Shown here in pieces: positions 8,371-59,396 of a stretch of DNA of 64,000 nucleotides. Every line of letters begins with the position of its first letter. The first letter of the stretch is position 1. The stretch comes from Bacteroidetes bacterium SW_9_63_38 (GTDB lineage: Bacteria; Bacteroidota; Rhodothermia; Rhodothermales; Salinibacteraceae). A program made the position numbers and the translations under genes. The notes under the pieces are model-generated. The model was not told the origin of the DNA, searched no databases, and saw only the letters and a program-made list of their open reading frames with translations. The stretch is from the NCBI GenBank assembly GCA_003022435.1, contig PXUA01000006.1, positions 62,001-126,000 of the forward strand, in the 5' to 3' direction.

Positions 8371-8490
8371 TGCACGCGTGACGCGTGATCCGTGAGACGT
8401 GAGGAGAGGGAGACCGGTACTCGGCGCTTTCTCTTCACGTGTCACTCGTCACGCATCACGAATCACGCAATACGCATTACGCAATACACG
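8371..8490. repeat. intercistronic word-repeat hairpin, sdhD-sdhA
   Basis: The left arm (8371-8410) is a tandem of variants of CGTGACGCGTGATCCGTGAG. The right arm (8430-8490) is made of the complementary words TCACTCGTCACGCATCACG and further variants ending in GCAATACGCATTACGC. The arms can pair into a long imperfect hairpin around a short loop containing GGCGCTTT. The same word theme recurs at 15596, 25504 and 59096. Confidence 0.75.
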
Positions 8491-8492
8491 CT

Positions 8493-10235
8493 ATGACTTT
8501 TGAGCATGATGTCGTTGTCATCGGGGCGGGCGGATCGGGCCTGATGGCGGCGCTGTACGCCCGCGAGGGCGGGGCCGATGTAGGGGTCGTCTCGAAGTTG
8601 CATCCACTTCGCTCGCACACCGGCGCCGCGCAGGGCGGGATCGCCGCGGCCCTCGGCAACGAGGAAGAAGACCACTGGCTCTGGCACGCCTTCGACACGG
8701 TCAAGGGCAGCGACTACGTCGGCGACCAGGACGCGATTGAGGCGCTCTGCAAGGACGCGCCCCGTACCATCGTGGAGCTGGAGCACTACGGCGTGCCCTT
8801 TAGCCGCAATGAGGAAGGCAAGATTTCGCAGCGACGCTTCGGCGGGCACACGCGCAACTTCGGCGAGGCCCCCGTGAAGCGCTCCTGCCACGCGGCCGAC
8901 CGCACCGGCCACACGATCCTGCACACCCTCTACGACCAGTGCACCAGGCAGGGCGTCCGCTTCTACGACGAGTTCCAGGTGCTGGACCTCATCATGACCG
9001 ACGACGGCGAGTGTGCCGGCGTGGTGGCCTACGAGCTGCTGACCGGCGAAATCCACACCTTCCACGCCAAGCAGGTCTGCTTTGCGACCGGCGGGTACGG
9101 CCGCGCCTTCGAGACGACCTCCAACGCCCACGCCGGTACCGGCGACGGGATGGGCATCATGCTGCGCAACGGCATTCCGCTGGAGGACATGGAATTTGTG
9201 CAGTTCCACCCGACGGGCCTCTACAAGCTTGGGATTCTCATCACCGAGGGCGCCCGCGGGGAGGGCGGCATCCTGCGCAACTCGGAGGGCGAGCGCTTTA
9301 TGGAGCGCTACGCGCCGACGGTGAAGGACCTGGCGCCCCGCGATATGGTGAGCCAGTGCATCTACAAGGAGATTCGAGAAGGCCGCGGCGTGCAGGACAA
9401 AAGTTACGTCCACCTTGACCTTACCCATCTCGACGACGAGGTGCTCGACGAGAAGCTGCCGGAGGTGACGGAGTTTTCGCGCACCTACATGGCGGTGGAC
9501 CCGAAGGAGGAGCCGATCCCAGTGGTGCCGACGTGCCACTACGCGATGGGTGGCATCCCAACCGATGAGAAGGGACATGTGGAGAAGGGCGAGCGGGGCA
9601 CCTCGGTGCCGGGCCTCTATGCGGTTGGAGAGTGCGCCTGCGTGAGCATCCACGGCGCCAATCGCCTCGGCACCAACGCGCTGCTGGAGCTCGTCGTCTT
9701 TGGGCGCCGAGCCGGTATGCAGATGGCAAAAGAGGTAAAACAGGGGAAAGGCTATGCTCCGCTCCCGGAGAGCCCTGAGCAGGACACACGCGACATGCTC
9801 GACAACCTGCTGTCGAACACGCGGGACGAGGGCGAGCCGATCGTGAAGGCCCGCTCGGAGCTCCAGAAGACGATGATGGATAACGTCAGCGTCTTCCGCA
9901 CCGACGACACGTTGAGCACAGCCCTCGATGACATCGCACAGCTCCGCTCCCGCGCGAAGAACGTGGTTGTGGAAGACAAAGGCACCCGGTTCAACACCGA
10001 CCTCATGGATGCCGTGGAGCTCGGCTACATGGTGGACTACGCCGAGGCCATCGCCGCCTGTGCCCGGAACCGTACGGAGAGCCGGGGCGCCCACTCGCGG
10101 GAGGACCATCAGAACCGCAACGATGACGAGTGGCTCAGGCACACGCTCTTCCGCAGCGACTGCGACGGTGAGTACGAGTTCGACGACAAGGAGGTCGTCA
10201 TCACCCGCTTCGAGCCGAAGGAACGCAAGTACTAA
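8493..10235 (+). CDS. sdhA: succinate dehydrogenase flavoprotein subunit
   Basis: The 580-residue catalytic subunit of complex II, which oxidises succinate to fumarate. The FAD-binding dinucleotide fold is at the N-terminus ([17 protein letters not shown]), followed by the flavinylation signature [12 protein letters not shown]. Substrate-site motifs QFHPTG, GARGEGG, HYAMGG and the C-terminal [10 protein letters not shown] are all present. The start at 8493 ([10 protein letters not shown]) removes an upstream stretch that is translated intergenic repeat. It is preceded and followed by repeat-rich hairpins, so expression of the operon's halves may be set post-transcriptionally. Confidence 0.96.
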
Positions 10236-10238
10236 CAC

Positions 10239-10325
10239 AATGTCGAATGGCGAATGTCGAGTGTCGAATGAAAAGTGTTCGGCGCTTGCTCGCCGTTCCG
10301 CACATTCGAAATTCGACATTCGAAA
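10239..10325. repeat. intercistronic word-repeat hairpin, sdhA-sdhB
   Basis: The left arm (10239-10275) repeats variants of ATGTCGAATGGCGAATGTCG. The right arm (10299-10325) carries the complement, ACATTCGAAATTCGACATTC. The loop contains GGCGCTTGCTCGCC, similar to the loop of the hairpin before sdhA. The words differ from that hairpin, but the architecture is the same. Confidence 0.75.
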
Positions 10326-10340
10326 CCCGAACCTGCTGGT

Positions 10341-11063
10341 ATGAACCTGAACGTTGAGATCAAGCGCTACAACCCGGAGGAGGATGAGGAGCCGCATTGG
10401 GAGTCGTATGAGGTGCCGGCCGATCCGCTCGATAGCGCCCTCTCGCTGCTACTGCACGTCAAATGGCATGAGGATGGGACGCTCTCCTTCCGCAAGAGCT
10501 GCGCGCACGGCATCTGTGGGTCGGACGCGATGCAGATCAACGGCGAGAACAAGCTGGCCTGCTCCGTGCTGGTGCAGGACATTGCGGACGGGGAGGGAGA
10601 TACGGTCACCTTTGCTCCCCTGCCCTCCGCTCCGGTCATCAAGGACCTCGTCATCGACCAGAGCCGCTTCTTTGAAAAGTATCGCGACGTAAAGCCGTGG
10701 CTCATTACCGATGGACCGGCCCCGGAGCGCGAGCGCGAGCAGAGCCCGGAGGAGCACGCCATGATCGAGGAGGCGTCGAAGTGCATCATGTGCGGGGCCT
10801 GCACACACGCCTGTCCCTCGACCTGGGCCGATCCGGACTACCTGGGCCCAGCGGCGATGCTCAAGGCGTATCGCTACACGTTTGACACCCGCGACGACGG
10901 GGCCGAGGAGCGCCTCGATGTGGTGGACTCGCCGGACGGACTCTGGAAGTGCTACACCATCTTCAACTGCAACGAGGCCTGCCCCAAGGACATCGACATC
11001 ACGCGGTGGCTTTCGGCCCTCAAGCGCCGGGCGGCGACCTCGCAGGCGTCGACGAACGCGTAA
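10341..11063 (+). CDS. sdhB: succinate dehydrogenase iron-sulfur subunit
   Basis: A 240-residue subunit carrying the three Fe-S clusters between SdhA and the membrane quinone. The [2Fe-2S] ligands are C54, C59, D62 and C74 (SCAHGICGSDAM, then KLAC). An Asp at the third position is also found in E. coli SdhB, so it is not a defect. The [4Fe-4S]/[3Fe-4S] motifs are CIMCGACTHACPS and CNEACPKDI. Met 10341 is the family start. This is the last gene of the operon; a strong terminator lies about 20 bp downstream. Confidence 0.95.
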   Translation: MNLNVEIKRYNPEEDEEPHWESYEVPADPLDSALSLLLHVKWHEDGTLSFRKSCAHGICGSDAMQINGENKLACSVLVQDIADGEGDTVTFAPLPSAPVIKDLVIDQSRFFEKYRDVKPWLITDGPAPEREREQSPEEHAMIEEASKCIMCGACTHACPSTWADPDYLGPAAMLKAYRYTFDTRDDGAEERLDVVDSPDGLWKCYTIFNCNEACPKDIDITRWLSALKRRAATSQASTNA

Positions 11064-11081
11064 CGCGGACCCGCGGACGCT

Positions 11082-11142
11082 GCCTCAAAACTCAACGCCC
11101 TGCCCGGATGGTCTCGGGGAGGGCGTTTTTGTTTTTGAGGCG
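11082..11142 (+). terminator. rho-independent terminator after sdhB
   Basis: The stem AACGCCCTGCCC pairs with GGGGAGGGCGTT and is followed by T-rich sequence. An outer CCTCAAAA / TTTTTGAGG pair extends the hairpin, so it could work in both directions. Confidence 0.8.
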
Positions 11143-11172
11143 ATACATGGAAGTTTCCCACCGGAGCCGAGT

Positions 11173-11215
11173 CGTGCGCGGCACTGTGTCGTGCGCGACA
11201 CTGTGCCGTGCGAGG
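11173..11215. repeat. near-palindromic GTGCGCG/CACTGTG repeat
   Basis: The words GGCACTGTGTCG and CGACACTGTGCC flank TGCG and form a near-perfect inverted repeat, embedded in further copies of the CGTGCG word. It is one of the many short-word repeat blocks in this window. Confidence 0.6.
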
Positions 11216-11242
11216 CAGGGGGCGAGACAGAATCGGCGGCTT

Positions 11243-11404
11243 AGAGACTGTTTTGATGTCACCCGATGGGAGTCCAAGCAGAACGTGACGATTGCAGACC
11301 GGTGATTCCCGCCCGACTGATTCCGGTTCCGAACGGCTCACAAGCAACCGAGCTAGACTGATCGACTCTCGATTTCAAGACGCTCAAAAATCAAAACAGT
11401 CTCT
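11243..11404. mobile_element. 162-bp element with 15-bp perfect terminal inverted repeats
   Basis: AGAGACTGTTTTGAT at 11243-11257 is matched exactly by its inverse complement at 11390-11404. The 162-bp interval has no reading frame, as expected for a MITE or the shell of a deleted IS. The flanks (TTA outside the left GAGAC, TCA outside the right GTCTC) resemble but do not match a 3-bp TNA duplication. The right end overlaps the stop codon of the small membrane protein gene at 11404. Confidence 0.55.
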
Positions 11405-11565
11405 CAGCTCCCGACGATGAGGAGAATGCCGGTTACAAGGGCCAGCACGGTGAGGACGAGGCTCTGATACTGAAAAGACAACCGGAAGAGGTCAATAAGA
11501 CCGTGCAGCAGGAGCCAGAGGCCAAGCAGGCGGAGTCCGAGACTACGGATGGAGGAATTTGCCAT
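11404..11565 (-). CDS. small two-helix membrane protein
   Basis: A 53-residue, almost entirely hydrophobic protein, MANSSIRSLGLRLLGLWLL followed by a second segment SLVLTVLALVTGILLIVGS, predicted to cross the membrane twice. I do not know its function. The frame is open upstream to 11613, but the start at 11565 leaves a compact membrane protein. The stop codon overlaps the inverted repeat of the adjacent 162-bp element, so that insertion may have set or changed the C-terminus. Confidence 0.55.
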   Translation of the reverse strand: MANSSIRSLGLRLLGLWLLLHGLIDLFRLSFQYQSLVLTVLALVTGILLIVGS

Positions 11566-11698
11566 GGGTGAGAGGGCGGAATTGTGGTTGGGAGCAGTAC
11601 GTACGTCCGCCAAGATATGGATACGGCAGCAAGCATCTCAAGATGCGATTGCCGTGATGATCCTGCCCGGTGGGACGCGAGAGGGACCTGATAGGGGC

Positions 11699-13330
11699 CT
11701 ACCGTGCAGGGCGGGAGGACGACGAGAGGGTGGCCGTGACGCGTCCGTCGGAGGGATCGCTGCCGATAGGACGAACGGTGCGGCTCCCGTAGCGGACACG
11801 GATTGGGGCACGGTCGGCGCCGTCGGCAACGCGAGCGTTGCCTTCGTAGGTTTTTTCCGGAATGGTGAGGCGCTCGCCGACACTCATCTGCGCGGGATAC
11901 CCGTCGCCGTTGGTCGATAAGAGGACAGAGCGCTTCACGTGGTAGCGCCGGGCGATTCGTCCGGCGGTCTCCCCCGCCTGGACCACATGCTGGAGCTTGG
12001 GAGAGGACTGCTCTCGGGGACGGGCATCAAGATTCTCTGCGAATGTCTTGTAGGTGCCGTAGGGCAGTCGTACGTAGTACGGCTTCTTGGAGGGCGGTAG
12101 GCGATCGCTTCGCAGTTCGGGATTGAGGACGCGAATCTGAGAGGGCGGCACGTCTGCGAGGGTGGCGACCTGGTCGATGGGGAGCGGGCGGTCCACCGGC
12201 ACGTAGTCGAAGGCGTACTGGGGGCCGGCCTGCACGCGCTTGAGGTCGAAGGCCGCCGGGTTCGAGATAATGACGGCTGTGGCCGTGAAGAGGGGGACGT
12301 AGTTGCGCGTCTCTTCGGGGAGGTCCTCGTAGATGTCCCAGAACGACGGCCGTTGGCCGGTGCGGTCCCGGTATTCCTGCACGTGATACTGCACGACGCC
12401 GGGATCGCAGTTGTACCCGGCGAGGGCGAGCTGCCAGTCGCCGAACTTCCGGTGCAGGTCCTTGAGGAGGCGGGCGGCGGCGCGCGTCGACTTTTCCGGG
12501 TCGAGACGCTCGTCGACCCACGGGTCGATCGATAGGCCGTACCGGCGGCCCGTCTTGGCGACGAACTGCCAGATGCCCGCAGCTTGCGCGCGACTCTGGG
12601 CATGCGGGTCGAGGCCGCTTTCCGCAATGGCAAGGTATTTCAATTCGTCGGGCACATTTTCTTCCGCGAAGATCTGTTCGATCATGGGGAAGTACGTGGA
12701 GGCCCGGCGGAGCCAGGGATAGAGGTACCGCTTTTTATTCCGAAGCAGAAACGCGATGGTCGTTCGCGTCGGCCGATTCATCGTGAGGGGCACCGCCGAG
12801 TGCTGAGTGCGCAGATCGGCGGGCAGAGCATCGACGACTGAGGCTGGCGCGCGCCGATTCACAGACGCAACGAGGTCGTCGCGGAGGTTCGAGACGGGAC
12901 TGTTCGGAAGGCGCAACGTGTCGGGGACACCGTACCTGTGCTCGTACTCGCGGGTCAGCGCCCGGAAGACGCGTCGAAAGCGCGGCCGCTCTACGAGGTT
13001 GGGGAACTGGAGCGAGGCGTGCAGGGTGCGGACCGTCGTGTGGAGGATCGCCTCAATCCGAGCATCGTCGTTTCGCGACTGCGCCCTCATGAGATCGGCC
13101 TGCAAGCGGTAGAGGCGATCAAGCCGACGCAGGGCCTCGCGGTCGGAGAGCGTATCCGACGAGGTGGGGGGACGGGCCGCGGGGATGGACTGAGCGGCGG
13201 ACAGGAATTGAGCCCACGTCGCCTGATGCTGGGTTGAGGAGGGGGGATGAGCGGTCTCGCGCCAGAGGATGGCGAGCCCGATGGCGCCGAGCGCGACTAC
13301 GAGCAGTAGCGTTCGGTTCTGCATGGGCAT
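11699..13330 (-). CDS. mltD: membrane-bound lytic murein transglycosylase, MltD-like
   Basis: A 543-residue peptidoglycan lytic transglycosylase. It starts with a membrane anchor or signal (LLLVVALGAIGLAILW), then a low-complexity spacer, then the SLT domain at about 200-330. There the catalytic Glu lies in YLAIAESGLDPHAQS, followed by AAGIWQFVAKTGRRYGL and ALAGYNCDPG. A degenerate LysM-like repeat (about 385-435) and a clearer LysM (LQHVVQAGETAGRIARRYHV) follow for glycan binding. The C-terminal 50 residues are basic and Ser-rich. The role is periplasmic cell-wall turnover. Confidence 0.9.
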   Translation of the reverse strand: MPMQNRTLLLVVALGAIGLAILWRETAHPPSSTQHQATWAQFLSAAQSIPAARPPTSSDTLSDREALRRLDRLYRLQADLMRAQSRNDDARIEAILHTTVRTLHASLQFPNLVERPRFRRVFRALTREYEHRYGVPDTLRLPNSPVSNLRDDLVASVNRRAPASVVDALPADLRTQHSAVPLTMNRPTRTTIAFLLRNKKRYLYPWLRRASTYFPMIEQIFAEENVPDELKYLAIAESGLDPHAQSRAQAAGIWQFVAKTGRRYGLSIDPWVDERLDPEKSTRAAARLLKDLHRKFGDWQLALAGYNCDPGVVQYHVQEYRDRTGQRPSFWDIYEDLPEETRNYVPLFTATAVIISNPAAFDLKRVQAGPQYAFDYVPVDRPLPIDQVATLADVPPSQIRVLNPELRSDRLPPSKKPYYVRLPYGTYKTFAENLDARPREQSSPKLQHVVQAGETAGRIARRYHVKRSVLLSTNGDGYPAQMSVGERLTIPEKTYEGNARVADGADRAPIRVRYGSRTVRPIGSDPSDGRVTATLSSSSRPAR

Positions 13331-15524: not shown

Positions 15525-15595
15525 GGGGCGGGGCGGTCAACGGAAGGGACGGGTGTGCCCATGAACGTAGGGGGCAGGGGCGCGGTCGTCAATCG

Positions 15596-15637
15596 GTTGC
15601 GTCACGCGTTATGCGTTGGGCGTTTCGCGTTGCAGGT
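15596..15637. repeat. GCGTT/ACGCG word-repeat block
   Basis: Successive variants of the word GCGTTATGCGTTGGGCGTTT follow GCGTCACGC. It shares the CACGCGTTATGCG theme with the spacer before sdhA and lies upstream of the carboxylase gene. Confidence 0.6.
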
Positions 15638-15707
15638 TAGCGATCGTACGACGGATTTGTTCATGACCGGGGGATCGTGTCTGCTCACATCGAGTCTCCA
15701 CGTCTCA

Positions 15708-15736
15708 AAACGTTCAACGTTAAACGTTTAACGTTT
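15708..15736. repeat. AACGTT repeat with a perfect 20-bp palindrome
   Basis: Four AACGTT hexamers occur at about 7-bp spacing. AACGTTAAACGTTTAACGTT at 15716-15735 is a perfect palindrome. Related AACGTT blocks are at 20479 and 26148. Confidence 0.8.
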
Positions 15737-16082
15737 GCGCTGAGGGGGGCCAAACAGGTCTCCCCAAGAAAATAACCACTTCTTTTTGCCCTTCCGGTTC
15801 GGATGATGCCCAACAACCACAAACGCCGCTACGAAATTTCCATTTGTCAGTACGTCTAGTGCAGGTTTAACCGGTCTTTTCGGGCTGACGTAGATCCCGG
15901 TCTCGCCGCTGCCCTCCTGAAGCCGGTTTCTCCCGGCCTCGAAGACTCGGGCGCCCGGACGGAGGCGGACGCGGAGCGGCCGAAATCAATCGTGTTTGAG
16001 GGAGCGAAGCGACCGAGTTTGATCGATTTTAGCAGAGCGGAAGCCGAAGTCAGCCCGGGTCTTCGCAGCCGTGATCTCTTTG

Positions 16083-16113
16083 GTTCATTTTTACATCTAG
16101 GTAAAAAATGAAC
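16083..16113. repeat. AT-rich inverted repeat
   Basis: GTTCATTTTTAC (16083-16094) pairs with GTAAAAAATGAAC (16101-16113), giving 12 pairs with one bulged A around the loop ATCTAG. It stands out in this GC-rich DNA. It could be a terminator or the scar of a mobile element. Confidence 0.6.
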
Positions 16114-16251
16114 GCCCGTCTCAGAAAAGGATGTGGACCGAAGAAATTGGCTTCTTTCTGTCGATCGAAAGGAAAGTGTTTCATCCGCCCGATCCGAAGG
16201 AGACCAATTGAAACCGCACCAGGGGGTGCGTTTCGCGTTTTGCGTGTGTGG

Positions 16252-17199: not shown

Positions 17200-17246
17200 A
17201 AGGGGCGTGGGAGCGTGGGCGAATGGGAGAGCGGGGGAGTGGGACG
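17200..17246. repeat. GCGTGGGAGCGTGGG word-repeat block
   Basis: Variants of GGGGCGTGGGAGCGTGGG run in tandem between the aminotransferase and OsmC genes. The same theme appears at 39417 and, inverted, at 44449. Confidence 0.6.
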
Positions 17247-18563: not shown

Positions 18564-18617
18564 AGATGTGAGTGGGGCTCAGGTGCTTGCACCCACACCT
18601 TCATACCCGAACGGAGC

Positions 18618-18685
18618 TGTCTCACTCGTGAGACTGTCTCACCCGTGAGACTGTCCCACCGGTGGGACTATCCCACCGGTGGGAC
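18618..18685. repeat. array of four tandem 17-bp palindromes
   Basis: Units at 18618, 18635, 18652 and 18669 have exactly 17-bp period: two GTCTCAC-NN-GTGAGAC units followed by two (G/A)TCCCACCGGTGGGAC units. Each unit is self-complementary, and the change between the first and second pair alters both arms together (TC to CC, GA to GG). It lies between two convergent genes and may work as a terminator or a protein-binding array. Confidence 0.9.
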
Positions 18686-20478: not shown

Positions 20479-20514
20479 GACGTTAAACGGGCGAACGTCT
20501 GAACGTTCAACGAA
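20479..20514. repeat. AACGTT word-repeat block
   Basis: GACGTTAAACG, GCGAACGTCTG and GAACGTTCAACG follow one another. It shares its word with the blocks at 15708 and 26148 and sits in the divergent space before dusB. Confidence 0.65.
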
Positions 20515-21735: not shown

Positions 21736-22629
21736 GGCAGGAAAGATCCGGGGCATTACCGTGGAGACGGCCGCATCTTTCAGGCTTCCACGCCTTCAAG
21801 CGTACATGCGTGCCTCCCGCTCGGGCACGATACGATCACGTTCCGTTTCCCACACGGAGACTTCAGCGCCCTCCCACCAGTCTTTACCTCTTCGTGCTGG
21901 TACGGCAGTCCAACAAAATCTGGGATTTCCGCAGCCGCGACGAAAAGTGGGCTACGCACGTTCTCACGGATCGGCAAGACCAACGTGTGAAATCCAATCA
22001 ATCTCTTGGCCGATTTCTTCCCCGCCGGGAGCTTCCTTTTTGCATCCGCGACAACTGTCGGGATACACATCGGTCCGGGCGGCGGCGTCGGTGCGGAGTG
22101 TTTTGGAGGAGGACACCGAGGGACCGGTGTGCCAGCAGTTTGGCAAGACGTAGAAGAAGTGAGGACAAGTATGCAGTGGTGTAGAGAGAATACTGCTTCT
22201 GTTCCAAGCGAGCAGAGCTGCTCCAGCGATACCCGACGCTGGTGTGAAGACACGTGAACATAATGAGCTGTGACTGATTCATTGAACCTATTTTCAAAGG
22301 AAAGCGGGAATCAGCACAGAGGCTGTAGTACGACGCCGGATTAGGAAACGTTAGAACAGAGACGCAAACACCCCCGAAGTGTCCCAGGAATTCATTAACA
22401 CTAAAGTCACCATAAGTCAAAAAGTCACAGGAACTCGTTCTGGAGGCACCTCTACCGTGTAACCGGTTCCGATCCCGATAAGCACCTTTTGCATCGGGCT
22501 CTTGTGGCTTCTTTGCTGCAGGCATTTCCCTGCGAGCAAAGAAAAGGGCTCGGACGAGAGCAGGAAACGAACCGGCGTGTGTGTCCGACTCACCTCCATT
22601 TTCACTCTCTCACAAGAGGCAATCCAGTT
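21736..22629. other. 890-bp intergenic region after dusB
   Basis: It contains a word-repeat block (21781-21844) and otherwise no convincing gene. A minus-strand frame from 22253 to 21780 is open, but its translation is compositionally irregular. Base composition is less GC-rich than the surroundings, as in the module that follows. Transcription signals for the Roadblock gene should be in the last 150 bp. Confidence 0.45.
21781..21844. repeat. GCTTCCACGCC word block with conserved flank, copy 1
   Basis: GGCTTCCACGCCTTCAAGCG and related words are followed by CCGCTCGGG and then ACGATACGATCACGTTC. The same combination recurs at 24946-25034, with about 23 of 27 bases shared in the flank. Confidence 0.6.
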
Positions 22630-24756: not shown

Positions 24757-24963
24757 TCATGTGTCGGAGGAGGTTGGCAGCTCCATCGTCTTCCGCCCTG
24801 CGAGGCGTTTGAGCACGAAGCGCGTGATTTTACGGCGTAGCTGGAGCGGAATATCGGCGCTCTTAGCAATGTTCTTGATGTTGACCTCGAAACGGCTGCG
24901 CGTGGAAACCGCCGACTGTCCACTTTCCCGAGGCAACTCCAGTTCCGCCTCCAAAGCTTCCAT
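24757..24963 (-). CDS. possible small basic protein
   Basis: A 68-residue candidate, MEALEAELELPRESG then FEVNIKNIAKSADIPLQLRR and KITRFVLKRLAGR, with a basic amphipathic C-terminal half. The start codon lies inside a word-repeat block (24946-24990), so the first residues are encoded by repeat words. No family is recognised, and it may be a chance frame. Confidence 0.25.
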   Translation of the reverse strand: MEALEAELELPRESGQSAVSTRSRFEVNIKNIAKSADIPLQLRRKITRFVLKRLAGRKTMELPTSSDT

Positions 24964-25034
24964 GCCTCCACGCCTGCCAACATACACGCTTGCCACCCTC
25001 CCCCCGCTCGGGTACACTACGATAACGTTCTGCT
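24946..25034. repeat. GCTTCCATGCCTCCACGCC word block with conserved flank, copy 2
   Basis: GCTTCCATGCCTCCACGCCT and related words precede CCGCTCGGG and ACTACGATAACGTTC. It is a second copy of the composite arrangement at 21781-21844. It ends 25 bp before the SCP2-like gene and may carry its promoter. Confidence 0.6.
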
Positions 25035-25503: not shown

Positions 25504-25602
25504 CTCGTGAGGCGTGAGCCGTGATGCGTGATCCCGGCAGGGGGCATGACCGGTCGGCTCAATGTCTCATTCGCACTTCGCCACTCGAAAATCGACACTG
25601 CA
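25504..25602. repeat. two-theme word-repeat spacer, SCP2-phasin
   Basis: The left part (25504-25533) repeats CGTGAGGCGTGAGCCGTGAT-like words, as before sdhA. The right part (25561-25602) uses ATTCGCACTTCGCCACTCGA-like words, as before sdhB. Two word themes are therefore combined in one spacer. Confidence 0.65.
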
Positions 25603-26083: not shown

Positions 26084-26147
26084 CGGAGGCGTTTCCAGGC
26101 GAAAATGTCTTGCGATGTACCGGTCCAACGAAATTTCCTCTTCCTAA

Positions 26148-26178
26148 GACGTTATAACGTTGAACGTTTCAACGTTTA
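26148..26178. repeat. AACGTT word-repeat block
   Basis: GACGTTATAACGTTGAACG continues into TTTCAACGTTTA, a near-palindromic series of AACGTT words between two convergent genes. Related blocks are at 15708 and 20479. Confidence 0.7.
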
Positions 26179-26220
26179 TCCGTTTGGGACCGGATTGGTT
26201 TTGGGCTAATGGCTCCGGTC

Positions 26221-26255
26221 GCACACACGCACAAACGCCCACACCCACACACGCA
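26221..26255. repeat. CA-rich track next to a stop codon
   Basis: Variants of CACACACGCACAAACGCCCA run directly downstream of the WS/DGAT stop codon, so that gene's mRNA ends in GTGTGGGTGTGGGCGTTTG-like sequence. A similar track follows ridA at 38863. Confidence 0.6.
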
Positions 26256-37826: not shown

Positions 37827-38131
37827 GCCTCGTTCTGCGCGTGGAGGCATGGACGCGTGGGGGCGTAGAAGCCTGGACGAGAGACGGATCGGATCGCTCG
37901 TCCGTTACGCGGACGTCGGGGCGGGCGGCTACCGTGTCGGAGCAGGGACTCCTTGCCCGGCTCTCAAATCGCTTTCCCGCCATGCAGATGGACAGATCGG
38001 CGGCTCTACCGATCCGTAAGAAAGTACGTAAACGATCCTCTGCTGCAGCTGAAGACCGTGCACAACCGCAAGCAAAGAACGGTCCTTAGAGACTTATTCA
38101 CGTATCGGTATTTCCCAATGCCTACGGACTG
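37827..38131. other. intergenic region between amidase and lipoprotein genes
   Basis: About 300 bp. The first part holds a word-repeat block (37838-37880). The AT-richer final 80 bp before 38132 should contain the lipoprotein promoter. No gene is seen. Confidence 0.4.
37838..37880. repeat. GCGTGGAGGCATGGACGCGTGG word-repeat block
   Basis: Variants of GCGTGGAGGCATGGACGCG and GGCGTAGAAGCCTGGACG are in tandem just after the amidase stop. The same theme appears at 21781, 24946 and 45721. Confidence 0.65.
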
Positions 38132-38862: not shown

Positions 38863-38900
38863 CCACTCACAAACCCACACACTCACACACCCACATACTA
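38863..38900. repeat. CA-rich track next to the ridA stop codon
   Basis: Variants of CACTCACAAACCCACACACT run up to the stop codon of the ridA gene on the minus strand, and the pattern continues into its last codons. It parallels the track after the WS/DGAT gene at 26221. Confidence 0.6.
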
Positions 38901-39299
38901 CTACCGCACAGCCACACAGCAGATCTCGACCCGGGCGTTGCGGGGGAGGCCGTCGACCTGCACGGCCTGGCGGGCGGGCGGCTGCTCGTTGAAGTAGCGG
39001 CCGTACACGTCGTTGATCTGGGCGTAGTCGTTGACGTCGGTCATCACGACCTCGCACTTCACAACGTTCTCGAAGCTCATGCTCGCGGCCTTGAGGATGG
39101 CGCCGACATTGTCGAGCACGCGCTCGGTCTCCTTCTCGATCGTCCCGTCGACCATGCTGCCCGTCTCCGGATCGATCGCGATCTGGCCGGACACGTACAG
39201 TTGGTCGCCCACGAGGATGCCCTGGCTGTAGGGGCCGATGGCGGCCGGGGCCAGCGGTGTTGTCACGGTGCTGCGGGACGTGGAGGTTGAGGTAGACAT
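38901..39299 (-). CDS. ridA: RidA family reactive-intermediate deaminase
   Basis: A 132-residue enamine/imine deaminase that removes toxic 2-aminoacrylate and related products of PLP enzymes. Family motifs are AIGPYSQGILVGDQLYVSGQ, IAIDPETGSM, VVKCEVVMTDVNDYAQIND, YGRYFNEQPPARQAVQVDGL and the substrate-binding Arg in PRNARVEICCVA. The first 12 residues are Ser/Thr-rich and not conserved. It is probably active as a trimer in the cytoplasm. The last codons are built from the CA-rich repeat track. Confidence 0.9.
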   Translation of the reverse strand: MSTSTSTSRSTVTTPLAPAAIGPYSQGILVGDQLYVSGQIAIDPETGSMVDGTIEKETERVLDNVGAILKAASMSFENVVKCEVVMTDVNDYAQINDVYGRYFNEQPPARQAVQVDGLPRNARVEICCVAVR

Positions 39300-39416
39300 A
39301 GGTGGGAGACAATGCTCATAGAAGGAGTGTTAGACTGTGTAAGGAAGATCACCGTCCCGCGGGCGCGGTACAAGCAAATATTGACTGAAGACACGCGAAG
39401 ATTAGCTGAAGGAGGA

Positions 39417-39475
39417 GCGTGGGTGCATGGGGGCGTGGGAGGGTGGGGGCGTGAGAGCATGGGCGTGGGAGTAGG
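39417..39475. repeat. GCGTGGGTGCATGGGGGCGTGG word-repeat block
   Basis: Tandem variants of GGGGGCGTGGGAGGGTGG lie upstream of mnmA. It belongs to the same theme as 17200 and the inverted 44449 block. Confidence 0.6.
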
Positions 39476-43315: not shown

Positions 43316-43463
43316 GTTTGTGTCTGGGAGCGGGGGGCGGAGGTTCTCACGCACTGAGCGCTTTCTCACCACCAGTGCCGAAGAGGTTGGATTGTTCAAC
43401 GGCGCGGGATGGAGCAAGCAACATCCGTCCACATACCCGCAGACGCCCGTACTCGCAGACGGC

Positions 43464-44448: not shown

Positions 44449-44494
44449 CCGCTCCCACGCTCCCGTTCTCCCACGCTCCCGTTCTCCCACGCAC
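44449..44494. repeat. exact 16-bp tandem repeat, CCCACGCTCCCGTTCT
   Basis: CCCACGCTCCCGTTCT occurs at 44454-44469 and 44470-44485, followed by a partial third unit CCCACGC. It is the inverse of the GCGTGGGAG theme at 17200 and 39417. Confidence 0.8.
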
Positions 44495-44648
44495 GTCTGG
44501 TCGCATCGGGCTGGAAGAAGCAGACGGGCCCTCCTGTTCAGCAATACACGGGTCTCCGGCACGATCCGATTGGACACCACGGCGCCTCGGTTCGTATCAT
44601 GAGGCAAGATCCGACATCCGTTTGTTCGATTGATCCAACTGTAGCTGC

Positions 44649-45719: not shown

Positions 45720-45720
45720 G

Positions 45721-45789
45721 CATAGAAGCGTGGAGGCTTTGGATGCGGAGGCACGCCTGTCCTGCCTCCACGCATCCATGCTTCCACGT
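45721..45789. repeat. GCGTGGAGGC/GCCTCCACGC hairpin repeat
   Basis: The left arm, GCGTGGAGGCTTTGGATGCG and then GAGGCA, pairs with the right arm, TGCCTCCACGCATCCATGC and TTCCACG, over about 26 positions. It follows the M42 gene and precedes the convergent DAHP synthase gene, so it may act as a bidirectional terminator. It shares the theme of 21781, 24946 and 37838. Confidence 0.8.
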
Positions 45790-45860
45790 ATCGAGGGCAC
45801 CGCTGACATCGGAGCGCACGTCGCCAGAACGGGGCACTATAATCGGACGCCGCTCACCCT

Positions 45861-48198: not shown

Positions 48199-48244
48199 TT
48201 CGTACTGCGTAGAGCGGAGCCGATGTCGAAATACGGAATACGAA

Positions 48245-48276
48245 ATATCCCACGAACGAGATATCCCACGAACGAG
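48245..48276. repeat. exact 16-bp direct repeat, ATATCCCACGAACGAG
   Basis: Two identical adjacent copies (48245-48260 and 48261-48276) lie between the response regulator and the kinase gene. Nearby GGAATACGAAAT words form the left edge of the block. Confidence 0.85.
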
Positions 48277-49802: not shown

Positions 49803-49840
49803 CGGCATCCGGGCTCGGGGATGAAAGCGGTTTATACATC

Positions 49841-51497: not shown

Positions 51498-51530
51498 TCC
51501 GGGCGTTTTCCTCTCGTTCAACGTTGGATG

Positions 51531-51564: not shown

Positions 51565-51593
51565 GGTACGTGAGAGCGAGACGGACAGAGAAA

Positions 51594-54975: not shown

Positions 54976-55713
54976 GCCGAGGTGATCGAGCGGGGCGCGC
55001 TGGACATCGATAAAGTCGGTGACGAACGTGGAGGCGGGGTCGTGGACGAGGGCGGGCATCGGATCCTGTTGTTCGATGGCGCCGTCGCGGAGGAGCACCA
55101 AGTGGTCGCCGAAGAAGCCGGCTTCGCCGATGTCGTGAGTGACGAAGACGACTGTTTTACCGAGGCGGCGGAAGATGGTGCGGAGGTCGTCCTGAAGGTC
55201 GGCACGGACCATGGGGTCGAGAGCGCCGAGCGGCTCGTCGAGTAGAAGCACGTCGGGGTCGAGGAGAAGGGCGCGCATGAGGCTTACGCGCTGCCGCTGC
55301 CCGCCGGATAGCTCGCTCGGGGACTGCGAGAGCCGGTCCGGGTTCAGTTGCACCAGGTCCGTTAATTCGTTCAGACGAGCATCGATGCGGGCCTGCGACC
55401 AGCCGAAGTGGTGGGCCATGAGTGCGGCGTTGTCCCGGCCCGTGAGGTGCGGAAAGAGGCCGCCCTCCTGGATGACGTAGCCCATGCGGTGGCGGAGGGC
55501 CTGCACGTTTGCGTCGGAGAGGGGCTGCCCGTTGACGGTGACTGTGCCCGCGTCCGGCGTGATGAGGCCGATCATGAGTCGCAGTAGCGTGGACTTGCCG
55601 CTCCCAGACGGGCCGATGAGGACCGTTGTTTGTTGCGGCGGCACCTGCAGGGAGAGGGTCCGCACGGCGACCTCGTTTTCGTATTCCTTCCGAACCCCAT
55701 CGAGTGTAATCAT
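54958..55713 (-). CDS. osmoprotectant ABC importer ATPase
   Basis: A 251-residue ABC ATPase of the OpuA/OpuC group. It has Walker A GPSGSGKST, Q-loop VIQEGGLFPH, signature ELSGGQRQRV, Walker B VLLLDEPLGALD and H-loop VTHDIGEA. Start at Met 55713 (MITLDGVRKEYEN); the frame is open much further upstream, but only because it runs antisense through the tRNA gene. No CBS domains are present at the C-terminus. It pairs with the permease fusion that begins 29 bp downstream. Confidence 0.92.
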   Translation of the reverse strand: MITLDGVRKEYENEVAVRTLSLQVPPQQTTVLIGPSGSGKSTLLRLMIGLITPDAGTVTVNGQPLSDANVQALRHRMGYVIQEGGLFPHLTGRDNAALMAHHFGWSQARIDARLNELTDLVQLNPDRLSQSPSELSGGQRQRVSLMRALLLDPDVLLLDEPLGALDPMVRADLQDDLRTIFRRLGKTVVFVTHDIGEAGFFGDHLVLLRDGAIEQQDPMPALVHDPASTFVTDFIDVQRAPLDHLGDENRE

Positions 55714-55881
55714 AGCGTGGGTGGCGGAGACGGGCGGCGGAGCGACGATCCCGGGAGGCGCGGCCGCGGGTAGGCATTGCGTTAATCGGTCGTGAAAGCC
55801 CCCCGGGAGGGGATCTTTGGCCCGACAACAAACGTGAGGACGTTTCCGGAAAATAAGCTGGACAAAATGGCTCGCTTCCAG

Positions 55882-55954
55882 GCCAACGTAGCTCAGTTGG
55901 TAGAGCAGTCCCCTCGTAAGGGACAGGTCACCGGTTCGAGTCCGGTCGTTGGCT
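55882..55954 (+). tRNA. tRNA-Thr (anticodon CGU)
   Basis: A complete cloverleaf: acceptor GCCAACG / CGTTGGC, D-arm GCTC-AGTTGGTA-GAGC, anticodon arm GTCCC-CTCGTAA-GGGAC with anticodon CGT, T-arm ACCGG-TTCGAGT-CCGGT, discriminator T. The CCA end is not encoded. It reads ACG codons. Confidence 0.97.
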
Positions 55955-56106
55955 CTTCGCGTCCCGCACACGGCGCCTCCGATTGTGTCCTACCGTCGCC
56001 GGTGGGACGCTCTTTTCCTGGCCCTCTCGGAGATTTACTGGCCTTCTTGGAGACCGGAAGGCGCGCTGAGGGCCAGAACCGTATCAGGCGTTGCTCTTCA
56101 GGGGCG

Positions 56107-56361
56107 TTATGTGCGATTCTGCTCCGATGTGCGGTCCTGCTCCGCGCGAGCCACCTCTTCCCCGCTCGGCGTGCAGCAGACCTCGACCCCGTCCTCCACG
56201 ACGACGAGGTTCTTTTGGGAGAGGGACTGGACGGCTTCCTGGACCGCCCGCGGGCCCGTGCCGATGGCCCGAACGAGTGCGTAGAGATCGGCATTGCCTT
56301 CCGCGTGGACGGCTTGTAGAACGGCCGACTCCGTGTCGTCGAGAGACGGGGAATTGCTCAT
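56107..56361 (-). CDS. small winged-helix-like protein
   Basis: An 84-residue protein, MSNSPSLDDTESAVLQAVHA, with helices and a wing-like end (SLSQKNLVVVEDGVEVCCTP) that suggest a minimal winged helix such as those in MarR-like or DUF-type DNA-binding proteins. The C-terminus is charged. No named family is recognised. It precedes, on the same strand, nothing else in the window; the SpoIIAA-like gene lies upstream of it. Confidence 0.55.
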   Translation of the reverse strand: MSNSPSLDDTESAVLQAVHAEGNADLYALVRAIGTGPRAVQEAVQSLSQKNLVVVEDGVEVCCTPSGEEVARAEQDRTSEQNRT

Positions 56362-56410
56362 GCTGATACGGGAATGGATTCCTACCGATTTCGGATCGAG
56401 CCACTCTGGG

Positions 56411-56440
56411 ATTCCTAGGATCTCAGATCTCCAGGATCTT
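56411..56440. repeat. GGATCTCAGATCTCC word block
   Basis: TCCTAGGATCTCAGATCTCC followed by AGGATCTTG contains overlapping small palindromes and repeats of the GGATCT word, between two minus-strand genes. Confidence 0.5.
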
Positions 56441-56509
56441 GCCGGACGAGTCCGGCTGATCTCCTCACACGGAGAATGTTGTTGACCTCCCTGTGCACAG
56501 ATCAGCAAC

Positions 56510-56941
56510 CTACTCGTCGTCCCCGTCCTGGGCACCTGCCTGCGGATCCGACACGCTTCCGGGGCCGATGCCGGGCACGTCCATGTCGCCTCGAATCCAG
56601 TCTAGGGCCTCCTCGCGGTCCTCGTCGTCGTAGGCTTGAATCTGCGACATCGGGAACAGCAGCTCGATCTTGTCCATCAGTGGCTCCCAGACATCGGTGC
56701 CGATCAGGGCGACCTTATCTAGGTCCTGCAGGTAGCGGATGTCGAGGGACAGCTCCTCCCACGTTTCCTCGGGCTCCCAACCGTCGACGTCGTTGATCTC
56801 GAGGACGAGGCGAGTCGTCGTGTGGGCTTCCATCTCCTGGTGGAGGCGCGAGACGAACGTGTCAAAGTCCTCTTCAGTGAGGGTGTTTGAGAGCCGGAAG
56901 CCGATGATGTTGGTATCCGGAAGGTCCAGAAGTTCGTGCAT
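56510..56941 (-). CDS. SpoIIAA-like (STAS-type) protein
   Basis: A 143-residue protein with the STAS/SpoIIAA-like alternation: NIIGFRLSNTLTEEDFDTFV, TTRLVLEINDVDGWEPEETW, VALIGTDVWEPLMDKIELLF and the C-terminal DDEDREEALDWIRG. The last 25 residues are Gly/Asp-rich. Proteins of this type (DUF3478-like) may bind lipids or act as anti-anti-sigma-like switches, but no function is established. It is followed on the same strand by the small winged-helix-like gene. Confidence 0.75.
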   Translation of the reverse strand: MHELLDLPDTNIIGFRLSNTLTEEDFDTFVSRLHQEMEAHTTTRLVLEINDVDGWEPEETWEELSLDIRYLQDLDKVALIGTDVWEPLMDKIELLFPMSQIQAYDDEDREEALDWIRGDMDVPGIGPGSVSDPQAGAQDGDDE

Positions 56942-57072
56942 AGGCAGCAGATCGGGGGTTAAGGAGCGAACAGAACGAATACGGCAAGTTGAAACAGCAC
57001 CATGACATCGAGTACGAGGGCGGGGGCGGTCTGTTCGAGCGGCTTCGCGAAATCCGTTTGGGGACTGGGGGG

Positions 57073-57132
57073 GTTATGAGTTGATGAGTTGTGAGTTGGT
57101 GGGGGGGTGAGTTGTACGTTGGGGGGGAGGCA
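57073..57132. repeat. GAGTTGATGAGTTGTGAGTTGG word-repeat block
   Basis: Variants of ATGAGTTGATGAGTTGTGAG run into G-tracts (GGTGGGGGGGTGAGTTG, then GTTGGGGGGG). It lies on the 3' side of the HTH-citrate synthase gene and would appear C-rich in its mRNA. Confidence 0.6.
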
Positions 57133-57165
57133 GGGTACTCGCTCTAGATGGGGGCGTGAGGTGTG

Positions 57166-58374
57166 TTATTCCGAGGGGGGAGGGGCGGGGCCGGTGTACT
57201 GGGCGCGGGGGCGGAGGACGTCGCCGTCCTCGTACTGCTCGACCATGTGGCCGGTCCAGCCCACCGTGCGGCCCAGGATGAATAGGAGCAGTGGGGCCTC
57301 GGACGGCAGGGTGAGAGCCCGGCCGAGGGCGACGAGGGCAAAATCGACGGCAGGCGGGTGCCCGAGGATGTCGGGGCCGACCTCCTGTGCGGCCCGGGCG
57401 AACGCGGTCCCGTCCGCGTCCGGAGCGACCTCCTGCAATCGATCTATCAGCAGCGCCGCCCGCGGGTCGCCGTTCGGATACAGCTGGTGGCCAAAGCCGG
57501 GGACCGTGTCGCCCCGTTGCAGCCGGGCGGCCACGGTGGCGCGGAGCTGGTCCGGCGTGCCGGCCTCGCGGAGCAGGGCGTCGATGCGGGCCGTGTTGCC
57601 GGTGTGGCGTTGGCCGCGAGCGGCCGAGAGGCCCGCGTTGACGGCGCCGTAGGGCGACGCGGCGGCAGAGGCCACGCTCCGCACGGTGAGGGCGGTCACG
57701 TTCAGCCCGTGGTCGGCGCAGAGCGCGAGGGCGGCGTTGAGGAGTGACGCGGTGCCCGGCCCCGTGCCCCAGGCGGCGTGCAGGCGCTCGGCCACCGAGC
57801 CTGTGCGGCTCGTTCCGGCGCGGCGTTCGATGAGGCTCGTGAGCAAAGAAAGAATGCGGATGCCCGTGTTCGTTACGCCGCGCTTAGAGAGATCGTAGGC
57901 CCGGTCGTCGGCCGCCTGGACCTGGGGTAGAAGCGTCTGCACGCGGTCCAGGACGGAGGCAGATTCGGCCACGGAATCGGGGGGTGGGATCGGAAGGGTC
58001 GCGTCGGCGAGGTTTATCCGATCCGTGCCCCGGTCCCAGAGGAGCGGGGCGACGGCTTCCAGGTCGTGCGACGTGGCCAGCGAGCAGGCGTCGTGGCCGC
58101 GATAGTAGAACCGCCCGTCGTTGATCAGCGTGAGGGCCGATTCCAGTACAGGCAGGCCCCAGTCGAGGGCCGTCCGGGCTGCCGTCTTGGGATCCTGGGT
58201 AAGCTGCTTTTTGCGCTGCAGCTGTTGGATGTCGTCGGCCCGGTAGCGACGAGTCCGGCGGCTGTCGTCGCTCGGCTCGGAGCGGACCAGGCCGCGGCTC
58301 ACGTAGGCGTAGAGCGTGTTTTTTGTGACATCGAGTGCCTCGGCGGCCTCGTCGGCGGTCAGGTGCTGGGGCAT
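57166..58374 (-). CDS. HTH-domain citrate synthase family protein
   Basis: A 402-residue fusion. Residues 1-50 form a MerR-like helix-turn-helix (LTADEAAEALDVTKNTLYAY, then RRTRRYRADDIQQL). The rest is a divergent citrate synthase fold with ALCADHGLNVTA (His), GFGHQLYPNGDPRA (His, but Gln replaces the usual Arg of GHRVY) and VDFALVALGRAL (Asp). The C-terminus ILGRTVGWTGHMVEQ and RPRAQYTG is canonical. Such fusions occur in other bacteria, but their role is unsettled; this may be a 2-methylcitrate/citrate enzyme, or a metabolite-sensing regulator. A palindrome lies in its upstream region. Confidence 0.85.
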   Translation of the reverse strand: MPQHLTADEAAEALDVTKNTLYAYVSRGLVRSEPSDDSRRTRRYRADDIQQLQRKKQLTQDPKTAARTALDWGLPVLESALTLINDGRFYYRGHDACSLATSHDLEAVAPLLWDRGTDRINLADATLPIPPPDSVAESASVLDRVQTLLPQVQAADDRAYDLSKRGVTNTGIRILSLLTSLIERRAGTSRTGSVAERLHAAWGTGPGTASLLNAALALCADHGLNVTALTVRSVASAAASPYGAVNAGLSAARGQRHTGNTARIDALLREAGTPDQLRATVAARLQRGDTVPGFGHQLYPNGDPRAALLIDRLQEVAPDADGTAFARAAQEVGPDILGHPPAVDFALVALGRALTLPSEAPLLLFILGRTVGWTGHMVEQYEDGDVLRPRAQYTGPAPPPSE

Positions 58375-58444
58375 TGGGTTCCGTGTTGAGGGTTTTGGGT
58401 TGGGCGTTCGGTCAAGGTGTTATGTTGACGTACTCCTCAATACA

Positions 58445-58460
58445 TTGATTCAAAAATCAA
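58445..58460. promoter_or_regulatory. candidate operator between HTH-citrate synthase and dinB
   Basis: TTGATT-CAAA-AATCAA is a perfect 6-bp inverted repeat in the divergent promoter space, in a locally AT-rich stretch. It is the kind of site a MerR/HTH dimer could bind, so the fusion protein may autoregulate. This is inference. Confidence 0.4.
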
Positions 58461-58531
58461 GATTGATAAGTGATCGGTCGTCGGCAATTATGGGGATGAC
58501 ACTGATTTTGCACACCCGCCCTCGCCGCGCC

Positions 58532-59008
58532 ATGTCTCCTACTCGCACTCCCGACGACCTCCAGCGCCTGTTCGACTACAACCGGTGGGCCAGTACCCGT
58601 CTGCTTGATGCAATGCGAGCAGCCGACGGTGTGCCCGACCGGGCCGTGGAACTGTACAGTCACGTGCTGCGCGCCCAGGACCTGTGGTACGGGCGCGTGG
58701 CGGGGACCGACCACGCCGACCTCGACCTCTGGACGACCGAGCCGCTGCCGGACTGCGCCGACCGGCTGTCGGCCAGTACGGAGCGCTGGCAGACGGTGCT
58801 CGATGAGCGCGTTCGGGACGGGGGGCTCGATCAGACCATCGACTACACGAATTCCAAAGGCACCCGCTACGAAAACACGCTGCGGGATCTCTGCACACAC
58901 GTCGTGAATCACGGCACGCACCACCGCTCGCAGATTGCGCTTGTGCTGCGCCGGGTCGAGATCGCGCCGCCCGCGACGGACTACATTTTTTACCTGCGGG
59001 CGCAGTGA
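58532..59008 (+). CDS. DinB family metal-binding protein
   Basis: A 158-residue four-helix bundle. The three metal-binding His are in ELYSHVLRAQDLWYG and VVNHGTHHRSQIA, with LFDYNRWASTRLLDAM at the start, all typical of DinB/YfiT-like hydrolases and thiol transferases. Met 58532 (MSPTRTPDDLQ) fits the family. Its role is unknown. It is divergent from the HTH-citrate synthase gene. Confidence 0.87.
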   Translation: MSPTRTPDDLQRLFDYNRWASTRLLDAMRAADGVPDRAVELYSHVLRAQDLWYGRVAGTDHADLDLWTTEPLPDCADRLSASTERWQTVLDERVRDGGLDQTIDYTNSKGTRYENTLRDLCTHVVNHGTHHRSQIALVLRRVEIAPPATDYIFYLRAQ

Positions 59009-59396
59009 GGAATGGGTATGTGGGTATTGCAGCGTCAATCGTCAATGTGCACGTTGGCCCGTGCCGTACGTATCTCCCGGTCTAATTCGTGAAGACGTGA
59101 CTCGTGACTGCTGACCCGGGAGTCCGCGTAACGCACAAGCGGCCTCACGCAATACGGATTACGCAATAGAATCGTCCGTCGATCAGCACTCCCGGACGGT
59201 TTTCCTTCCTCCCTTCCGTATACAGAATTAGCGTTGACAGTGCAGTATGTGGGCGACGCACGAGTGCGTTGACGCACAAGTGCGTCCAGGCCCATATGCT
59301 TGCCTCCATCCCGTCGCATCTACATCCCGGAATTTTACTGCCGGATTCGATCTCACTTTGCATCTGCTCGCTCTTCTCCAATTTCAGGACGTACCA
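59009..59396. other. 390-bp intergenic region with repeats
   Basis: No gene is seen. It contains looser ACGTGACTCGTGACTGCTGA and CACGCAATACGGATTACGCA words (59096-59170), the theme of the sdhD-sdhA spacer, and a pair of tandem palindromes (59255-59286). Confidence 0.5.
59255..59286. repeat. two tandem 16-bp palindromes
   Basis: GACGCACGAGTGCGTT is followed directly by GACGCACAAGTGCGTC. Each half is GACGCAC-NN-GTGCGT(T/C). The layout resembles the four-unit array at 18618. Confidence 0.8.

Follow-up and report, generated by a model that had tools for sequence, protein, structure and literature searches.

The 64,000-nt stretch of Bacteroidetes bacterium SW_9_63_38 analysed here (the window; contig PXUA01000006.1, positions 62,001 to 126,000, or G000:C6:62001-126000 in our numbering) is part of a 2.84-Mb draft, below called the own genome, and carries in its intergenic spacers tandem arrays of degenerate 7-nt and 8-nt words, which we call heptads and octads. 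The best reading, to which we give a probability of about 0.58, is that these are degenerate repeats of the kind known as short tandemly repeated repetitive (STRR) sequences, which would have grown by slippage and been filtered by selection on untranslated RNA. STRR sequences of cyanobacteria are short tandem 7-nt units scattered in spacers, and the likeness is one of this general character. Heptad arrays show the traits of that kind, namely an excess at 7 nt, fixed and variable positions, insertions and deletions (indels) in unit steps and inverted partners; octad arrays are a variant of the heptad kind, not members of it. Arrays known in kind are unusually rich here, and what differs from the known cases is the many words per genome, the octad class and the polarity with respect to start and stop codons.

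The arrays stand far above what shuffled spacers produce. Spacers of the window of at least 40 nt were scanned for four units at period 7 or 8, with 60 dinucleotide-preserving shuffles as control, and 15 of the 55 contained an array; the shuffles averaged 0.45 and never exceeded 3. A reading of the letters of the window (the original prediction) had described blocks of rhyming words in nearly every intergenic space and had proposed a comparison with shuffled spacers; the comparison bears out the blocks, the proportion is about a quarter of the spacers, and each of the 18 coordinates that it named has repeated variant words no more than 10 nt away. Two of these places (20479 and 24946) sit in spacers under the array threshold, and the word at 15606 is GCGTTNN and not CGTGATG. 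In 464 kb of the own genome including the window (319 spacers, threshold set at 0.1% of shuffles), period 7 was found in 25 spacers and period 8 in 26, with 0.3 expected for each, and periods 4, 5, 6, 9, 10, 11, 12, 13 and 14 in 0, 0, 1, 1, 2, 0, 3, 1 and 12, so that the excess sits at 7, 8 and multiples of these. A family-wide sample of 1831 spacers from 17 genomes of the Salinibacter family (313 from the own genome; period 11 scored in 1802) gave 74 spacers against 0 shuffled at period 7 and 42 against 1 at period 8, with periods 5, 6, 9, 10 and 11 near the shuffled level (observed/shuffled 3/2, 0/0, 1/1, 4/3 and 2/1); among periods 5 to 11 the excess is confined to 7 and 8. Chance or base composition as the source of the arrays is ruled out by these comparisons. 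Spacers longer than 700 nt were excluded from the family-wide counts of period, anatomy, arms, vocabulary, order, polarity and Shine-Dalgarno motifs and from the own-genome polarity counts, which removes the window spacers 15525-16251 and 21736-22629, both included in the 15 of 55. A relaxed catalogue of 156 arrays (114 heptad, 42 octad, 26 of the latter from the own genome) served for the analyses below.

Positions within a unit vary unevenly, some being fixed and some variable: the among-column variance is 0.67 against a null of 0.49 in 105 heptad arrays (t=4.3) and 0.80 against 0.59 in 42 octad arrays, which contradicts the uniform decay of a once-perfect array. Units two apart are more similar than neighbours (0.778 against 0.731 for heptads, 0.724 against 0.673 for octads), with none of 500 order shuffles matching the observed value, which points to copying by 14 or 16 nt at a time. 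The vocabulary of words is limited, and words recur across loci and genera. Pairs of heptad arrays at most one mismatch apart make up 0.142 of all pairs against 0.041 for shuffled arrays, and within the own genome the corresponding values are 16.5% against 4.2% for heptads and 20.9% against 3.5% for octads, contrary to the earlier statement that loci have no conserved sequence in common. Among 114 genomes of the order, 21 have TKCGTRT heptads (1 for the word read backward, 3 for a scrambled word) and 14 have GCGTGAN heptads (7 read backward; the own genome is without an exact match), and an exact 21-mer of a TKCGTRT-type word was found in 5 of 296 genomes of an even phylum sample. In viral contigs GCGTGAN heptads were found in 48 stretches against 15 for the scrambled word, and the exact 21-mer of the TGCGTAT theme in none. 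A long near-perfect array of the 14-mer TGCGTATTTCGTAT lies at G010:C1:2453993-2454083, and the same dimer is present in other families.

The arrays cluster at gene edges, with 85 of 156 lying within 15 nt of one (expected 44.5 +/- 4.6), and their composition depends on which edge it is. Of the 47 arrays no more than 40 nt from a start codon, 41 are A/C-rich and 3 G/T-rich when read in sense, and of the 59 equally near a stop codon, 41 are G/T-rich and 11 A/C-rich, compared with a mean A+C of 0.54 at the start edges and 0.49 at the stop edges of array-free spacers. The own genome follows this orientation at 15 of 15 start edges and 14 of 16 stop edges, and outside it the co-directional spacers give 27 of 27 A/C-rich starts and 26 G/T-rich, 8 A/C-rich and 1 even stops; all start-edge exceptions outside the own genome amount to 3 of 32. 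Our main reason for invoking selection is that a strand bias linked to transcription should be the same at both ends of a gene and not reversed; this polarity asks for selection, or for a gene-aware process, besides slippage, and it predicts which spacers should influence expression. Shine-Dalgarno-like motifs precede 139 of 1679 other starts and 0 of 36 array starts; no inference on arrays as a Shine-Dalgarno replacement is drawn, such motifs being rare everywhere.

Let us consider, then, whether mutation by itself would be enough, a habit of the polymerase favouring slippage by 7 or 8 nt with nothing selected. Two papers (PMC4679880, PMC4692102) note that heptads are over-represented in bacterial genomes and cite an earlier proposal that 7 nt is the contact length of the polymerase, and the heptad excess extends here to other phyla: 80 sdh loci of named genomes hold 23 arrays of period 7 against 0 in each of 3 shuffles, with 4, 2, 1, 0 and 2 at periods 6, 8, 9, 10 and 11 against 0 shuffled. 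By record title, the 23 comprise 14 desulfobacterial or deltaproteobacterial, 4 Ignavibacteria, 4 genus relatives and 1 Fermentibacteria; in one locus (L059:8262-8340) blocks of GAGGTTN and CCTCAAN face each other 5' of a start. The flip of polarity between start and stop edges (with exceptions outside the own genome where genes converge or diverge), the limited vocabulary and the conserved hairpin with a compensatory change described next all argue against mutation acting by itself, which we regard as unlikely.

The sdh operon, where Pfam backs succinate dehydrogenase subunits at 7855-11060 (the small subunit scoring just below cut-off), allows the spacers to be followed among relatives, for which twelve genomes of the same genus were used, giving 13 with the own genome. 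A hairpin in the sdhA-sdhB spacer is found in the own genome, in G009, in G008 and in G018, the last from another genus of the family, and has a common stem with 19 pairs in the own genome (fold z -4.1, -4.2, -4.2 and -2.9 in the four). Eighteen of the 19 pairs are standard in all four genomes, the nineteenth being broken in G018, and one of the 18 has changed on both sides, from C-G to U-A, in G018. Between the own genome and G009 the fourfold sites of sdhA are 48% identical (132/275), and the aligned arms of the hairpin are without difference, with the stretches between the arms and the central stem differing. We read this as probable purifying selection on structure at this one locus; the other genus genomes compared have an sdhA-sdhB spacer with different words or no array. 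Taken with the polarity at gene edges, the conserved hairpin points to a function in untranslated RNA. Of 11 genus genomes compared, 10 have a heptad array in the sdhD-sdhA spacer, its theme being CGTGA or TGCGTAT, so the position of the array is retained while the word changes; fold z ranges from -4.8 to -0.2 and is -2.8 for the whole spacer of the window, whose 3' arm stops 1 nt short of the sdhA start. The sole array-free sdhD-sdhA spacer is that of G010, although its flanking proteins match their G003 counterparts at an identity that rounds to 100%. Since gene order 3' of sdhB is disrupted in most relatives compared, a second anchor region was compared among relatives.

Differences between close relatives carry the mark of unit-sized steps. 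Indels of 7 nt number 6 of 54 in array spacers and 6 of 312 elsewhere (p=0.0036), and unit-size indels 15 of 54 against 31 of 312 (p=0.0012). Between G003 and G010 the median spacer identity is 0.84 with arrays and 0.937 without, and alignment fails more often for heptad spacers (6 of 23 against 13 of 230, p=0.0036); the substitution values, which omit unalignable pairs (19 of 255 for G003/G010, 6 of them with heptads, and 1 of 42 for G001/G012), are 0.104 for arrays, 0.119 for arms, 0.097 for the rest of the same spacers and 0.069 for array-free spacers. The alignable arrays of G001 and G012 differ by 1 substitution in 102 aligned array bases. Whole spacers are also replaced, at sdhA-sdhB between G001 and G012 and at sdhD-sdhA between G003 and G010. 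Hence the idea that an ongoing process keeps rewriting the spacers is too strong as a general statement, considering the G001/G012 arrays and the sdhA-sdhB arms that are the same in the own genome and G009, and holds in part for these replacements; in the alignment of orthologous spacers that the original prediction suggested, array substitutions are ordinary where alignment is possible and unit-size indels are enriched. Array spacers of G003 keep the array in 11 of 16 orthologs in G010 and 2 of 11 in G004, and those of G010 in 11 of 21 orthologs in G003 and 2 of 18 in G004. G004 (512 kb sampled) has 5 arrays in 323 spacers, its near relatives G003 and G010 having 23 in 338 and 27 in 340; it is a lineage that lost, or never acquired, most arrays. 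The sdhA-sdhB spacer of G012, 314 nt with long inverted stretches, where G001 has 71 nt with different words between flanking proteins 99% identical, has apparently been replaced, or has gained an insertion, recently.

An inverted block of the same word in the same spacer (at least 15 of 21 matches for heptads, 15 of 24 for octads) accompanies 46 of 113 heptad arrays, compared with 1 if the rest of the spacer is shuffled and 11 if it is taken from another array spacer. For octads the count is 16 of 40, compared with 8 and 17, and octads as hairpins were rejected because their inverted partners are not above the same-vocabulary control; the observation that words are often followed by their inverted complement thus stands for heptads and falls for octads. 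A word common to both arms far beyond the controls is what would be expected if one arm were repeatedly rewritten from the other by hairpin-templated copying, one of the two processes originally offered, and the faster divergence of array spacers, the change of theme in both arms together in orthologous spacers and a weak hint of mirrored unit order in 12 octad arrays (percentile 0.668, s.e. 0.061) lean the same way. The unit order of one heptad arm, however, does not mirror that of the other (percentile 0.505, standard error (s.e.) 0.035, 60 arrays; the true order strictly best in 1), the alignable arrays of G001 and G012 are almost unchanged, the sdhA-sdhB arms are identical in the own genome and G009 despite the divergence at fourfold sites, and differences of theme are explicable by recombination of older allelic spacers. 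Mismatches between arms, scored in 23 full-length heptad cases, affect 0.43 of the positions variable in the array and 0.20 of the invariant ones. The heptad arms have a word in common, not a copied order of variants, and hairpin-templated copying seems to us quite unlikely. The other process put forward, slippage, fared better, with the two-apart similarity, the 7-nt indels and the faster divergence of array spacers on its side. At G003.a 71135-71334, facing words sit at both gene edges more than 100 nt apart, so arms need not make a tight hairpin; the stretch between them, part of which G010 and G004 also have, resembles a promoter on visual inspection.

Returning to slippage filtered by selection on untranslated RNA, we envisage the following course. 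Arrays would lengthen and shorten by replication slippage in steps of 7 or 14 and 8 or 16 nt; two blocks of the same word facing each other across a spacer would each expand independently, allowing hairpin pairing in several registers. Selection would retain an A/C-rich leader 5' of the start and a G/U-rich trailer 3' of the stop on the sense strand, and in operon spacers such as sdhA-sdhB the hairpin itself might be retained, where it probably sets mRNA stability or the relative expression of the neighbours. Words would pass between strains through ordinary homologous recombination of spacers. C-containing words at a spacing of 7-8 nt also figure in the idea of rho utilisation.

Several points weigh against this reading. 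Slippage by itself leaves the words common to genera unexplained. The two most variable positions of a unit are adjacent in 54 of 105 heptad arrays, which turned out to be a tie-breaking artefact (41.8 of 105 with random ties, against 35.6 +/- 5.0). Outside the own genome the polarity fails at convergent stop edges (4 G/T-rich, 4 A/C-rich) and divergent start edges (2 A/C-rich, 3 G/T-rich), and it is the loss of the adjacency result together with this failure that lowered our estimate. Substitution in arrays resembles that in the rest of the spacer, meaning that words are not generally conserved, and within the class of indels of 5-30 nt the unit-size share is 15 of 31 against 31 of 107 (p=0.053). 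As for folding, own heptad spacers of up to 350 nt have a median z of -1.0 against -0.3 in 60 sampled array-free spacers, 3 of 21 against 5 of 60 have z<-3 on the + strand, and the sdhD-sdhA spacers of G002 and G004 bear arrays with z of only -0.2; the z-scores being this modest, and reaching -2.8 or lower in several, not all, sdh spacers, the hairpin is not general and the fold was rejected as a general property of arrays. Some arrays of the relaxed catalogue are probably chance arrays, counts pooled across species contain orthologous, non-independent arrays, and the definition of spacers depends on gene calls from a home-made codon-model caller.

A more far-reaching scenario is perhaps worth stating, even if we hold it to be rather doubtful. 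Salinibacter and its relatives might share a small dictionary of exchangeable 7- and 8-nt words that serves as a general code of untranslated regions, G/U-rich after the stop and A/C-rich before the start, in which blocks of the same word pair across the spacer, any word would serve, and an undescribed process stepping by two units (14 or 16 nt) makes the blocks. If this were true, the heptads of records titled Desulfobacterota or Ignavibacteria, of cyanobacteria and of Xanthomonas would all belong to a single widespread class, whose elements are marked by their period, their polarity and their self-pairing rather than by sequence. Whichever scenario applies, the wealth of words in this genus, the presence of two periods, the graded pairs of species and the tendency in orientation at gene edges allow slippage, templated copying and selection to be told apart, the order of units in the two arms being one such test.

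Among known systems the closest are the heterogeneous heptads of Xanthomonas, (GGGANTN)n, and of Nostoc, GGGGA(T/C)T, which the text of PMC4692102 presents as mostly intergenic, variable in copy number, often paired as arrays on opposite strands nearby, and differing in length and sequence between related species. The 7-nt unit, the fixed and variable positions and the inverted partner arrays are shared with ours; as far as that text goes, there is one G-rich word per genome there, whereas here there are many words, two periods and the start/stop polarity (PMC4692102). The P6b stem of the Nostoc trnL group I intron, in the part of PMC4476775 devoted to it, consists of degenerate heptads (TDNGATT or NNTGAGT), its word having been replaced repeatedly across lineages with a similar fold and with unit-size indels. 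Arms of degenerate 7-nt repeats are common to both cases; that account concerns one intron locus (PMC4476775), in contrast to the many spacers here, and an Rfam search of the window returned one tRNA only and no intron. TAACTGA heptamers, according to the sections of PMC4679880 dealing with them, are distributed patchily over Beggiatoaceae, Cyanobacteria and some Bacteroidetes, show 7-nt indels between strains, and in one genome end a few nt 5' of start codons in one orientation, as do our start-adjacent arrays (A/C-rich in the own genome without exception). There the word is single and exact in those sections (PMC4679880), unlike here, where words are degenerate, arrays after stops have the complementary orientation and hairpins occur, and TAACTGA itself was found in 0 of the 156 arrays and nowhere in the window. 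A literature search by title and abstract start, with most subscription journals outside its reach, returned no description of such arrays in Salinibacter.

Repeats of this spacing could also be operators. MetJ-like proteins bind 8-bp boxes. Arrays might be where a DNA-binding protein sits, for example a ribbon-helix-helix protein on contiguous 7-bp boxes, with the conserved part of the word as its recognition site, which would suit the uneven variation inside units and the common vocabulary. PMC9499535 describes ParB of pSM19035 binding WATCACW boxes arranged as contiguous direct or inverted heptads, and CGTGATN contains ATCAC, the core of those boxes. The pSM19035 parS site resembles our arrays in that its 7-bp boxes, which have a 5-nt core, follow one another without a gap in direct or inverted orientation, and differs from them by having one plasmid word and a dedicated protein (PMC9499535), none being over the cut-off here. 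The Omega_Repress profile, the only such family tested, gave no match over the cut-off in 13 genomes and one below it in G004. There are, moreover, many unrelated words, and the share of spacers with arrays is similar for each of the four gene orientations (7.8-10.4%). Operator arrays are, in our estimation, very unlikely.

Alternatively, a dispersed mobile palindrome, similar to repetitive extragenic palindromic (REP) sequences or miniature inverted-repeat transposable elements (MITEs), might insert as a unit, consistent with words common to loci and families, with the patchy distribution and with a match to Y1_Tnp in 6 of the 13 genus genomes. The other 7, including the array-rich G010 and G011, are without a Y1_Tnp match, and no fixed ends were seen. 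At least 4 further, weaker matches to the sdhA-sdhB hairpin lie elsewhere in G008 and G009 (66-95 nt, 70-76% identity), as such an element would predict; yet matches of at least 78% over at least 89 nt, among those listed in 31 genomes, fall only in the orthologous sdhA-sdhB spacers of the own genome, G009, G008 and G018. A single palindromic consensus in many copies, of the type of REP or bacterial interspersed mosaic elements (BIMEs), was not encountered, the sdhA-sdhB hairpin being the only one searched whole. We judge a mobile palindrome to be highly improbable.

Table 1. Word blocks in the window (positions in window coordinates).
Feature	Position	Strand	Basis or remark
sdhD-sdhA spacer, 5' arm, CGTGANN heptads, G/T-rich	8374..8404	+	sequence; orthologous spacers compared
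sdhD-sdhA spacer, 3' arm, TCACGNN grading into TACGCAN heptads, A/C-rich	8435..8491	+	
sdhA-sdhB spacer, 5' arm, AATGTCG heptads	10239..10270	+	10251-10270 is the 5' side of the 19-bp stem
sdhA-sdhB spacer, short central stem between arms	10280..10295	+	
sdhA-sdhB spacer, 3' arm, ATTCGAN heptads	10302..10326	+	10303-10322 is the 3' side of the 19-bp stem
GCGTTNN heptads	15606..15638	+	words checked at coordinate
AAACGTT heptads	15707..15737	+	window array scan
GCGTTTN words, right end of the spacer also holding the 15606 and 15707 blocks	16228..16251	+	
Octads GCGTGGGA	17202..17243	+	window array scan
ACGTT words	20479..20512	+	spacer below array threshold
CCACGCNT-theme octads	21785..21817	+	window array scan
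Octad words CCATGCCT/CCACGCCT	24953..24978	+	spacer below array threshold
GCGTGAN heptads, immediately 3' of stop codon	25504..25534	+	window array scan
ATTCGCA/ACTCGAA words, immediately 5' of start codon	25569..25606	+	theme unlike left block 25504..25534
AACGTT words	26147..26176	+	
Octads CGCACACA	26220..26255	+	window array scan
Octads GCGTGGAN	37839..37879	+	window array scan
Octads CACTCACA/CACCCACA	38864..38901	+	window array scan
Octads GGAGCGTG, 7 units	39414..39471	+	window array scan
Weak octads, 4 units with 7 deviations	43429..43460	+	window array scan
Octads, ACGCTCCC and GTTCTCCC in alternation, 16-nt step	44449..44495	+	window array scan
Octad block opposite 45761-45792	45720..45755	+	
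Octads CACGCATC, inverted relative to 45720..45755	45761..45792	+	window array scan
Residual ATACGNA words	48228..48248	+	orthologous spacers in G002, G003 and G010 contain TGCGTAT arrays
GAGTTGN words, mixed period 7-8	57074..57122	+	spacer below array threshold
TGGGTTN heptads, left end of divergent spacer	58375..58409	+	window array scan
CGTGACT heptads	59088..59116	+	window array scan
TACGCAN/ACGCAAT word block, same spacer as 59088..59116	59145..59169	+	

The window also holds repeats of other types. In the spacer of the residual ATACGNA words, a 16-bp direct repeat (ACGAAATATCCCACGA) lies at 48240-48271. A convergent spacer has four tandem 17-bp palindromic units (CTGTCTCACNCGTGAGA / CTATCCCACCGGTGGGA) at 18617-18684, a repeat type distinct from the heptads, and another pair of 17-bp units in tandem, built around a GTCGTGCG core, lies at 11162-11195, followed by a third stretch similar by eye. 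A perfect 14-bp inverted repeat, its copies separated by 132 nt (11244-11257 and 11390-11403), sits close to the right end of its spacer and may be the mark of a small inserted element.

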